Positions 5,099 to 14,778 of a stretch of 32,909 nt of DNA are shown piece after piece. Both the position numbers and the translations under genes were made by a program. Every line of letters starts with the position of its first letter. The first letter of the stretch is position 1. Below the pieces are notes generated by a model. That model saw only the letters and a program-made list of their open reading frames with translations, ran no database searches and was not told the DNA's origin. Origin of the DNA: Syntrophomonadaceae bacterium. GTDB lineage: Bacteria > Bacillota > Syntrophomonadia > Syntrophomonadales > Syntrophothermaceae. The DNA is taken from NCBI GenBank assembly GCA_012799365.1, contig JAAZLJ010000071.1, positions 1 to 32,909 of the forward strand. Reading direction: 5' to 3'.

Positions 5099-5563
5099 TC
5101 AGTCCAACTCTTTTAAAAGATTAGCCATTTCGATAGCAGTAAGGGCGGCATCAGCCCCTTTGTTACCAGCCTTGGTACCCGCCCGTTCAATGGCCTGTTC
5201 AATGGTATCAGCCGTGATGATCCCGTAAGCCACCGGCACCCCGGTCTGCAGCCCTACCTGAGCAACACCTTTGGTGACCTCGGATGCCACATATTCGAAA
5301 TGGGGAGTAGCCCCGCGGATAACCGCCCCCAGGCAGATAACCGCATCATATTTCTTCTGCGCCATCCTCTGAGCTGCTATCGGCAGCTCGAAGGCTCCTG
5401 GAACCCAGGCGATCTCGATATTGCGAGAGTCGGCCCCATGTCGGATGAGAACATCCATACACCCTGAGAGCAGTTTCTGAGTAATAAATTCGTTAAACCT
5501 CGATACCACCAACCCGAAACTCAGGTTTTCCGCAATCAATTTTCCTTCATAAACCCTGGTCAA
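5099..5563 (-). CDS. ribH: 6,7-dimethyl-8-ribityllumazine synthase
   Basis: This 154-residue enzyme condenses 5-amino-6-ribitylaminouracil with 3,4-dihydroxy-2-butanone 4-phosphate to give lumazine, the penultimate step of riboflavin synthesis. Conserved features are SRFNEFIT (21-28), WVPGAFELP, the [16 protein letters not shown] region with catalytic His88, and a C-terminal [16 protein letters not shown]. The start is taken as TTG at 5563, because AGGAGG lies seven bases upstream and this gives the usual 154-residue length; an open frame to 5632 exists but is unconserved. It is the last gene of ribD-ribE-ribBA-ribH, about 140 bases after ribBA with nothing recognisable between them. Confidence 0.95.
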
Positions 5564-5705
5564 AACACTACCTCCTACCCTAAAAATAGTCCACCCCAAC
5601 CCAATGCCGGGTCCCAATAACGGTACTGGCATCTCGGGTTAATCGTTATCAATACTATAAGGTATAACCTCATACTCTAATCAGTGTTTGAGCTATATTA
5701 TCCCG

Positions 5706-6911
5706 CTATATGGTAGCCAGCAGATGCCCCATTCTTTCTTTTTTGGTCTTCATATAGCGCTGGTTTTCCACCTTAACCTGTACCTCAATAGGAACTCGTT
5801 CTACCATGGACAGACCGTAACCTTCCAGCCCCCGGATCTTTTTGGGATTGTTAGTCATCAAGCGCATTTTCCTGACCCCCAGGTCGACCAGAATCTGTGC
5901 TCCAATACCGTAATCACGCAAATCCGCCGGGAAACCCAGGTCTTCGTTAGCCTCGACCGTATCTCTGCCCTCTTCTTGCAGCTTATAGGCTCGGATCTTG
6001 TTAACCAACCCGATCCCCCTGCCCTCCTGGCGCATGTACAGCAGTACTCCCTTACCCGCTTCCTCAATCATTTCCAGAGCTCGGCCCAGCTGCTCTCCGC
6101 AATCACAGCGCAAAGAACCAAATACATCCCCGGTAAGACATTCGGAGTGTACCCGAACCAAAATAGGTTCGTCTTTTTCCCATTCTCCTTTGACCAAAGC
6201 CAGATGTCCTTTACCGTCCAACAATGAACGGTAAGCCACCCCGGCGAACTTCCCAAAACGAGTAGGAAGTTGAATCGACTCCACTTTTTCCACCAGAACC
6301 TCAGTTCGACGCCGGTATTGGATCAGATCAGCGACTGTGATTATCTTCAGATCGTGTTCATGAGCAAACTCCATCAGCTCCGGAACCCGGGCCATAGCAC
6401 CATCATCATTCATTATTTCACAGCATACCCCGGCCGGGTAAAGACCCGCCAATAATGCCAGATCCACCGTGGCCTCGGTATGTCCAGCCCGTCTCAGTAC
6501 ACCACCTTCCTGGTATCGCAAAGGAAAAACATGCCCCGGACGGCGAAAGTCCGAAGGTTCCACGGTAGGAGAGAGCAGTGCCAGAATAGTTTCGGCCCGT
6601 TCAAAGGCAGAGATACCAGTTCGAGTGGTTTTGTAGTCTACCGAAACGGTAAAAGCGGTTTCATGATTATCCGTATTATCAGTAACCATTTGTCTAATAT
6701 CCAGCTCGTCCAGGCGCTCTCCTTTCATAGGAGTGCAGATAAGCCCTTTGCCATAAGTGGCCATAAAGTTGACCGCCTCCGGGGTGACCTTATCCGCCGC
6801 CATTACCAGATCACCTTCATTTTCACGGTCCTCATCATCAACTACGATGAGCATCTTCCCCGCTTTGATATCCTCAATGGCTTCCTCGATGGTGTTAAAC
6901 ACCTTGGTCAT
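5706..6911 (-). CDS. ribBA: Bifunctional DHBP synthase / GTP cyclohydrolase II
   Basis: A 401-residue fusion. Residues 1 to about 200 are 3,4-dihydroxy-2-butanone 4-phosphate synthase, acting on ribulose 5-phosphate, with the acidic loop [10 protein letters not shown] (25-34), RPGH (124-127) and [10 protein letters not shown]. Residues about 205-401 are GTP cyclohydrolase II, with [20 protein letters not shown] carrying zinc ligands Cys258, Cys269 and Cys271, then RQEGRGIGL. The two halves supply both precursors of lumazine. The gene begins eight bases after the ribE stop. AAAGGAGGAG abuts the ATG unusually closely, but the conserved N terminus [16 protein letters not shown] supports this start or the GTG three codons later. 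Confidence 0.96.
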
Positions 6912-6919
6912 CTCCTCCT

Positions 6920-7573
6920 TTATATTACATAACCATGCTCACGCAGGAAATCCCAACCCAATGTCTGGCCGTCGTTGGTCTGGTTATCAGCCTTCATTAA
7001 CCTTTCCACGTACTTGCCAATTACATCAGCCTCCAGGTTCACATAATCCCCAGGACGTTTAAAACCTAATGTGGTTAATTTTGCCGTATGGGGGATAAGA
7101 GAAACGATTATACCATCAGACAGTACATCCACAATAGTAAGGCTGATACCATCGATAGCTATGGAACCCTTGGGCAGAACGTAACGCATAACCTCATCCG
7201 GAGCTTTGATCCGGGTCACTACCGCAATGTCTACCCTGGTCTGCTCGACCACCTGACCCACACCGTCTACATGTCCCAGCATCAGGTGTCCCCCCAGCCG
7301 ATCCTGTAACCGCAGGGCCCGTTCGAGATTCACCTTTTGCCCGGCCCGAAGATAGCGTAAGGTGGTCTTGTCCATGGTTTCCGGCATCACATCAGCCGTA
7401 AACTGTTCAGAGCTAAACTCGACGACCGTGAGACATACCCCATCTACTGCAATGCTGTCTCCTAATTTCACATCTTCCAATACCCTGGTGGCTTCTATAG
7501 CCAGGCGAATGGACTGACTACCCCGCCTTACCGCTTTAACTACACCTAGTTCCTCGACAATTCCGGTAAATAT
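6920..7573 (-). CDS. ribE: Riboflavin synthase alpha subunit (apparent AUA start)
   Basis: A 217-residue enzyme that dismutates two lumazines to riboflavin. It has the duplicated lumazine-binding domain: the first copy covers about residues 1-97 ([17 protein letters not shown]) and the second about 98-190 ([20 protein letters not shown]). The conserved N terminus is normally MFTGIVEE; here the codons read ATA TTT ACC GGA ATT GTC, with an in-frame TGA three codons upstream and GAGGTG seven bases before the ATA. No ATG, GTG or TTG lies upstream in frame. The first conventional candidate is a TTG at 7480, which would delete 31 conserved residues. I therefore annotate an AUA start, with a sequencing or assembly error as the alternative. 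The gene lies between ribD and ribBA. Confidence 0.85.
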
Positions 7574-7603
7574 CTGGCTTCACCTCTTTTCGCTGCTACA
7601 AAA

Positions 7604-7659
7604 ATAGACGCAGATTAACGCTGATATTTATGATAATGCTGAAAATAAAAACTAACTCA
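7604..7659 (+). repeat. Dispersed intergenic repeat, short copy E (overlaps ribD 3' end)
   Basis: GACGCAGATTAACGCTGAT followed by ATGCTGAAAATAAAAACTAA matches the first half of the repeat family described at 8807, 10799, 14660 and 32719. The copy lies between ribE and ribD. Its CTAACTC end contains, on the minus strand, the TAG stop of ribD. The GTGTGGTAACCC block is missing apart from a possible ATAACCGG remnant that lies within ribD. Confidence 0.65.
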
Positions 7660-8752
7660 AATAACCGGTGATGAGGATATCCTCCTGAAAACGGTCAATG
7701 TTATAACTGGTTAGCCTGACAGCTTCCGCCATACGGGCCACTCCCCTACCTCCTACCGGTGAAGGTGCCCGATTCCCACCACAAAGTTTGGGAGCAATAA
7801 ACCAATAGACCTTATCTACCAACCCTGCCTCCAGAAAAGAAGCATTAACTTGCCCGCCCCCTTCTACCAGCAAACTCATAATTTCTCTTTTCCCCAGAGC
7901 TTTTAAGACCACATCCAAGGGCAGCTTGTCCCCATCACTATCTATGGCTATTACCTTGATTCCTCGATCTTCTAGCAGTGCAGCCCGTTCCTCGCTGGCC
8001 TGGTTACTGGTAAAAACCAGGGTTGACTGCTGTGCAGCGCTGGCTGCTATTTGCGAATCCAGCGGCAGCTGCAGCTTTTCATCCAGGATAACCCGGACCG
8101 GATCCCGACGGCCTTCAACCTCCAGCCGGGTATTCAGCAGCGGATCATCCTTTATTACTGTGCCAATTCCTACCAGGATAGCATCATACACATTCCTAAG
8201 CTGATGAACAAAACGCCGAGAATCCTCACCGGTTACCCAACGCGAGTCCCCGGTATAAGTCGCAATCTTGCCATCCAGAGTCATCGCACTCTTCAAGGTC
8301 ACGAAGGGAATTCCCCAGGTAATATACTTGAAGAAAAACTCGTTATTCCGACGAGCCTCTTCCTCCAGCACCCCCACCCTGACCTCGATACCGGCTTTTC
8401 TCAACCTGTTAACCCCTTGTCCGGCTACGCGAGGATTGGGATCCAAAATCGCCACCACTACCCGTTTCACACCAGCGGCTATGACCGCATCTACACATGG
8501 AGGGGTTTTCCCATAATGAGAGCAGGGTTCCAGGGTAACATAAAGCGTCGCATCCCGGGCTTGCTCCCCTGCCTGGTTTAGAGCATTGATTTCCGCATGA
8601 GGTCTTCCTGCCCGGAGATGATAACCTTCTCCCACCACTTCCCCGTCTTTTACCAAAACTGCCCCGACTATGGGATTGGGGCTGGTTCTGCCCTGAGCCC
8701 GTCGGGCCAGATTCAAAGCTCTTTTCATGTATTTATTATCATCGTCAAACAT
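7652..8752 (-). CDS. ribD: Bifunctional diaminohydroxyphosphoribosylaminopyrimidine deaminase / reductase
   Basis: A 366-residue fusion carrying out the second and third steps of riboflavin synthesis. The N-terminal zinc deaminase domain (1-145) shows TSPNPIVGAVLV, H52-A-E54 and EPCSHYGKTPPC (Cys77, Cys86). The C-terminal NADPH reductase (about 150-366) has TLKSAMTLDGKIA, GDSRWVTGEDSR, GIGTVIKDDPLLNTR and LLVEGGGQVNASF. The start is the ATG at 8752, behind AAGGGGTGG; an upstream in-frame codon adds only 11 unconserved residues. It is the first gene of the rib operon, preceded by the FMN riboswitch and terminator. The last codons and TAG stop run into repeat copy E. Confidence 0.95.
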   Translation of the reverse strand: MFDDDNKYMKRALNLARRAQGRTSPNPIVGAVLVKDGEVVGEGYHLRAGRPHAEINALNQAGEQARDATLYVTLEPCSHYGKTPPCVDAVIAAGVKRVVVAILDPNPRVAGQGVNRLRKAGIEVRVGVLEEEARRNNEFFFKYITWGIPFVTLKSAMTLDGKIATYTGDSRWVTGEDSRRFVHQLRNVYDAILVGIGTVIKDDPLLNTRLEVEGRRDPVRVILDEKLQLPLDSQIAASAAQQSTLVFTSNQASEERAALLEDRGIKVIAIDSDGDKLPLDVVLKALGKREIMSLLVEGGGQVNASFLEAGLVDKVYWFIAPKLCGGNRAPSPVGGRGVARMAEAVRLTSYNIDRFQEDILITGYLS

Positions 8753-8806: not shown

Positions 8807-8906
8807 AACCGCAGATGAACGCTGATCGGACGCAGATTACACAGAAAATTTATGCATACGCTGAAAGTATAAAAACAACTCTACAGGAAGTGTGGTTAAC
8901 CACACT
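8807..8906 (+). repeat. Dispersed intergenic repeat, copy D (in the ribD leader)
   Basis: It opens TGAAACCGCAGATGAACGC and continues with CGCTGAT and CGCAGAT units 10-11 bases apart. An ATACGCTGAAAGTATAAAAA stretch and AACTCTACAGGAAGTGTGG follow. It ends in a perfect 18-bp palindrome, AGTGTGGTTAACCACACT (8889-8906), where other copies read GTGTGGTAACCCGG. It lies between the riboswitch terminator and the ribD ribosome-binding site, so it is transcribed as antisense repeat in the leader. Confidence 0.75.
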
Positions 8907-8975: not shown

Positions 8976-9002
8976 GAAAAAGCCCCGATTCTTCGGGGCT
9001 TT
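8976..9002 (-). terminator. FMN-riboswitch-controlled intrinsic terminator
   Basis: On the minus strand AGCCCCGA (9000-8993) and TCGGGGCT (8988-8981) form a stem around AGAA, extended by flanking A-T pairs and followed by TTTTTCTTATT. It is about 55 nt downstream of the FMN aptamer and before ribD. Its 5' arm (CCCCGAAG, 8998-8991) is also perfectly complementary to CTTCGGGG in the 5' strand of the aptamer (9180-9173), giving an alternative antiterminator pairing. Confidence 0.85.
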
Positions 9003-9057
9003 ACGAGCATAGTAGAGCATGTTCAAGTATGCCTGCAAAAATGCATACTCTCCTCAT

Positions 9058-9185
9058 CTCTCCTTCTCCCATCCAGCCTGTTACTGTCGGCTCCGGATTC
9101 TCACCGGATCTGCCCGAAGGCTCGCGGGCTTGAGGCCTACGCCCCTCACCGCCGGCACGGAATTCCACCGATCCCCGAAGGAAAG
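9058..9185 (-). ncRNA. FMN riboswitch aptamer (RFN element)
   Basis: Read on the minus strand, the conserved RFN blocks occur in order: CTTCGGGGATCGGTGGAATT, CCGGCGGT, AGCCCGCGAGC, GATCCGGTGAGAATCCGGAG, CCGACAGT and GGCTGGATGGGAGAAGG. The closing P1 stem pairs 9185-9177 (CTTTCCTTC) with 9066-9058 (GAAGGAGAG). FMN binding should favour the downstream terminator and switch off the rib operon. An extra hairpin, AGTATGC/GCATACT (9049-9043/9032-9026), lies between aptamer and terminator. Confidence 0.97.
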
Positions 9186-9211
9186 TCTAAATATTCGATT
9201 TCTTTGAATTT

Positions 9212-14659: not shown

Positions 14660-14778
14660 TTGAAACCGCAGATATACGCTGATGGACGCAGATGAATTGC
14701 AAAATAGACGCAGAATACGCAGAAAGTTATGAACACGCTGAAGATAAAAAATTACTCCTGGAGGGAGCGGGTTGAACA
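14660..14778 (+). repeat. Dispersed intergenic repeat, copy B1
   Basis: It starts TTGAAACCGCAGATATACGC and continues with CGCTGATGGA and CGCAGATGAA in exact 10-base steps. A further AGACGCAGAATACGCAGAAA, then AACACGCTGAAGATAAAAAA, and a diverged end GGAGGGAGCGGGTTGAAC follow. It is the forward partner of the inverted copy at 14833-14959. Confidence 0.75.

Follow-up and report, generated by a model that had tools for sequence, protein, structure and literature searches.

The riboflavin operon lies on the minus strand of the window, by which we mean the whole stretch of 32,909 nucleotides that was analysed, in the order FMN riboswitch, terminator-like hairpin, ribD, ribE, ribBA and ribH. The relevant features are as follows.

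9057..9186, minus strand: FMN riboswitch at the head of the operon (RF00050, 105.7 bits)
8979..9002, minus strand: terminator-like hairpin in the interval between riboswitch and ribD (one site found)
7652..8752, minus strand: ribD, the 5' neighbour of ribE; its open reading frame is extendable to TTG 8785
7579..7587, minus strand: Shine-Dalgarno (SD) stretch of ribE, AGAGGTGAA (duplex with the 16S tail -11.7 kcal/mol, aligned spacing 9)
7580..7582, minus strand: TGA in the ribE frame, three codons 5' of ATA (read from the sequence)
7571..7573, minus strand: ATA, initiation codon of ribE (sequence, relatives, SD, alignment with Met1 of solved riboflavin synthases)
6920..7573, minus strand: ribE, riboflavin synthase, 217 aa, TAA stop at 6922-6920 (TIGR00187 above cut-off, PDB matches)
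5706..6911, minus strand: ribBA, the next operon gene after ribE, ATG start (canonical control)
5099..5563, minus strand: ribH, lumazine synthase, likely TTG start with a strong SD

The hairpin is likely the expression platform of the riboswitch; by itself it is weak, as shuffled sequences average 1.7 such sites against the one found. No ATG is present at the expected place in ribH, and the TTG at 5563 with its strong SD is most likely the start; the mechanically called 177-aa frame from 5632 (5099-5632) is therefore over-long. The stop codon of ribD is separated from the ATA of ribE by 78 nt, and this gap holds one copy of a repeat core, (T)AATCTGCGTC or a near-match, that was found at 7607-7619, 8829-8841 and 14685-14697, all on the minus strand (three matches versus 0.46 expected); the copies are possibly remnants of a small dispersed element.

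The ribE frame matches TIGR00187 with 227.7 bits (cut-off 156.6) over model positions 1-200, starting from 7573 exactly and with no internal stops. The gene is present in a single copy in the genome; a second pattern match (C42) proved to be a DnaK-like frame and was rejected. On the minus strand the start region reads AAAAGAGGTGAAGCCAG-ATA-TTTACCGGAATTGTCGAGGAA. The ATA (7573-7571), preceded by gcgaaaAGAGGTGAAgccag, stands directly before TTT ACC GGA ATT GTC GAG GAA, and ATA-TTT aligns with Met1-Phe2 (MFTG) of solved riboflavin synthases matched in PDB. The initial annotation had described an FTGIVEE N terminus encoded from this ATA, a GAGGTG ribosome-binding site seven bases upstream, an in-frame TGA three codons before it and no ATG, GTG or TTG ahead of FTGIVEE, the next conventional start being the TTG at 7480; all of this holds on the minus-strand sequence. 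GAGGTG occupies 7586-7581 and is separated from ATA by seven bases; the TGA lies at 7582-7580, with only AGC and CAG, and hence no ATG, GTG or TTG, between it and ATA; and the TTG, the first conventional in-frame codon 3' of ATA, encodes residue 32. Since the TGA rules out a start further 5', ATA is the sole possible initiator of full-length RibE. Nothing unusual was seen in the predicted RNA structure near the start (z +1.3).

Start codons of ribE in the order and beyond

The ribE genes of order members were gathered by a protein search and a start-neutral DNA pattern, giving 56 genomes after removal of one false match (in G042, a 366-residue frame that is not ribE). A locus search seeded with IFTGIVEE was excluded from the frequencies because the seed is biased to AUH, by which we denote ATT, ATA or ATC at the codon preceding FTGI(V/I)EE; NTG denotes ATG, GTG or TTG. 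The start codons were ATT in 22 genomes, ATA in 11, ATC in five, ATG in nine, TTG in five and GTG in four. AUH is thus the majority state (38/56, in 20 genera, with NTG in the remaining 18), and coincidence can be dismissed, given its recurrence at the equivalent position in so many members. The initial remark that AUA starts are very rare stands for bacteria in general but does not apply to ribE in this order. Control genes behaved conventionally: rpsL starts with ATG or GTG in 53/53 matched genomes of the order (the window's own family being unmatched by the pattern), and the start of ribBA, the next gene of the operon, is canonical.

The initial annotation had left two readings, a genuine low-efficiency start or a single-base error (ATG to ATA), and had proposed to align the codon in close relatives, ATG there counting against an AUA start. 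In G003, at 72% identity the nearest relative found, the codon is indeed ATG, behind an SD of the same kind; but in G001, which belongs to the same family and is assembled as one contig of 2.4 Mb, it is ATT with an in-frame stop three codons upstream, and AUH prevails in the order. An assembly or sequencing error could be suspected in a draft MAG (267 contigs, 91.6% complete, 4.2% contaminated) for which the nearest relative found carries ATG. It is nevertheless very unlikely, because most order members share AUH at this codon, the carriers including single-contig or isolate assemblies (G001, G411, Desulforadius, Petroclostridium). The genuine start is strongly favoured, and translation of the window's ribE very probably initiates at AUA.

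In eight of the 38 AUH genomes (seven genera) a stop precedes any usual start upstream. In the other 30 an NTG stands in frame upstream, nearly always a GTG inside the SD sequence GGTGGTG and nearly always no more than five codons away, and such codons are commoner here than in genomes with canonical starts. Relatives could then initiate at this GTG, three or four codons upstream, and read AUH as isoleucine, with few exceptions including the window. We regard this as highly improbable. The upstream GTGs are themselves part of the SD and lack a separate one (mean SD duplex of the upstream NTG codons -4.0 kcal/mol; usable SD for a nearby one in 1 of 29 AUH genomes having such an NTG). An SD at aligned spacing of 7-9 nt precedes the AUH codon in 38/38 genomes, with a mean duplex of -12.9 kcal/mol versus -11.3 for ATG ribE. 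Within one genus (G043/G056) the spacer between SD and start differs by non-multiples of three. Five genomes of genus g8 share one SD and spacer, GGGAGGTAATAGT, yet their codon -5, the only nearby upstream start candidate, varies among ATG, TTG and ACG. Finally, AUH genes blocked by a stop occur in many lineages, and for the window's ribE the TGA excludes an upstream GTG. The stop-blocked cases, the placement and strength of the SD and the constancy of the g8 leader thus identify the AUH codon as the ribE start in the relatives as well.

Outside the order, all six genomes sampled from two further families of the phylum (Desulforamulus-type) have AUH, five of them stop-blocked, and further stop-blocked cases came from Petroclostridium, Treponema zioleckii, Desulforadius and Schwartzia. 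The phylum sample gave AUH in 24/399 genomes, 15 of the 24 from the window's order. The Clostridia sample gave 4/245, of which two had been pre-selected and one is doubtful; Spirochaetota gave at most about 3/55 and Chloroflexota at most about 2/45, both mostly without ORF confirmation. No AUH ribE was seen among about 121 Bacilli genomes with a match. The trait clusters in one order, with a few relatives besides. To judge from these comparisons, AUH is an inherited weak start signal of ribE in the order and some related lineages.

Several other matches were encountered. The ribE starts of G382/L180 and G689/L259 were not convincing. Candidatus Chloroploca (G449, C55 and C72) has two ribE-like starts, one ATG and one ATA. 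Genus g16 and a further genome yielded short second RibE-like matches of about 85-90 residues, in frames of 97-119 aa and with 38-49% identity to the N-terminal half (G040:C131, G045:C61, G054:C130, G030:C16, G027:C134); possible candidates for their identity are single-barrel relatives of riboflavin synthase.

Initiation at AUH and the supply of RibE

The gene infC, encoding IF3, is the classic AUH-start gene. In the order, infC has ATT, ATC or ATA behind a long, extended SD (L229-L258), with ATT in the window's genome (L250); order members therefore encode IF3 and very likely use AUH for infC. At ribE, the extended SD at its usual distance would set fMet-tRNA on the AUA, where the third base alone would be mispaired; initiation is thus expected to be weaker than at AUG and compensated by the SD. 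AUU, AUA and AUC interchange at this position within the order (Syntrophomonadales-like) and some related lineages. Measurements elsewhere give the scale: in C. butyricum AUU, AUA and AUC yielded 5-20% or 45-85% of AUG, depending on the 5' UTR (PMC9680021), and in S. aureus AUA or AUU with an extended SD reached about 10% of the AUG level, rising to as much as 30% in rich medium (PMC13009471). IF3 is described as requiring Watson-Crick pairs at codon bases 1 and 2, with a graded preference at base 3 (PMC10158994), and AUN at the ribE start fits this.

The IF3 level may modulate ribE initiation. In a stronger form, ribE would have joined infC as an IF3-sensitive gene, with RibE tracking the initiation factor and the growth state. 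Both genes have AUH with a long SD in the same genomes, and AUA use in S. aureus ccpN depends on the medium (PMC13009471); but a connection of IF3 with the demand for riboflavin would be purely hypothetical and relatives with NTG cope without an IF3-sensitive ribE; such control seems improbable.

The initial annotation had also suggested that the start tunes RibE within the operon, which is plausible. The enzymes of B. subtilis and Aquifex form a cage in which a C-terminal signal holds three RibE within 60 RibH (PMC13376624). The RibE tail here, DFLREHGY (FLREHGY), resembles this cage-localization signal, FLxE(H/N)GF-type tails are common to order members, and the closest solved relative of the window's RibH is the B. 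subtilis 60-mer 1RVV. A weak ribE start makes sense where one operon has to supply RibH in large excess over RibE: output from the polycistronic mRNA under FMN riboswitch control could be held low, which would suit a complex of three RibE per 60 RibH. It is thus quite possible, if somewhat short of probable, that the weak start keeps RibE low relative to RibH.

Tolerated drift is a reading of similar probability. Here too ATA would be the true start, but a small need for RibE and a strong SD would make the third base unimportant, with no tuning involved. The third bases of the ATN starts (T22, A11, G9, C5) show no sign of selection against AUG: ATG, with 9/47 versus 12 expected from G at fourfold sites (p = 0.40), is neither depleted nor enriched. 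Simple tolerance fits equally well, since G is not avoided. On a tree inferred from RibE with the start codon left out, ATT, ATA and ATC must have changed into one another at least 13 times, and AUH and NTG at least seven times, within the order, as drift would produce. Drift accounts less readily for the absence of AUH from Bacilli, for its majority across a whole order and in all six genomes of the two further families, and for the stronger SDs of AUH ribE compared with ATG ribE.

A further proposal holds that AUH is actively kept, in the order and the Desulforamulus-type families, as the RibE:RibH setting for the 3:60 cage, coupling flavin synthesis to IF3. This we consider rather unlikely. 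Two observations count against tuning in any form, including the simple lowering of RibE considered above: ATG, GTG and TTG members of the order have the same RibE tail as AUH members, and the sampled Bacilli, to whose class the complex-forming B. subtilis belongs (PMC13376624), have canonical starts. The cage can thus do without a weak codon.

Relation to known AUH starts

Like ribE, infC combines an AUH initiator with a strong extended SD and conservation across species; unlike ribE, a biosynthetic enzyme gene in an FMN-riboswitch operon, it is autoregulated via IF3. The starts of ccpN (AUA; S. aureus and B. subtilis) and of S. aureus cvfC1 (AUU) and citZ (AUA) likewise pair AUH with an extended SD, those of ccpN and cvfC1 being conserved between species (PMC13009471); these are other genes in another lineage, and lowered initiation was measured there, whereas for ribE it is inferred. 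In E. coli, the AUU start of pcnB (Binns and Masters 2002, cited in PMC13009471) keeps an enzyme gene low, as proposed for ribE, but this is not a case of operon stoichiometry. Near-cognate ATT proteoforms of E. coli ribE also concern riboflavin synthesis (PMC13245402); however, that gene encodes lumazine synthase and corresponds to ribH here, and its near-cognate starts accompany AUG, whereas AUA is the sole start of the window's ribE. No report of a riboflavin synthase with an AUU start or another unusual initiation codon was found in the open-access literature; subscription journals could hold one.

AUH initiation of ribE joins the known cases of infC, pcnB and ccpN, and with it a metabolic gene enters the small set whose AUH starts are deeply conserved. 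In practice, gene finders restricted to ATG, GTG and TTG will cut ribE short or misplace its start in most of the order. Moreover, the order supplies a ready-made set of species in which a single operon gene has start codons of different classes, while the target ratio, 3:60, is known; the effect of start codon strength on subunit ratio becomes directly testable.
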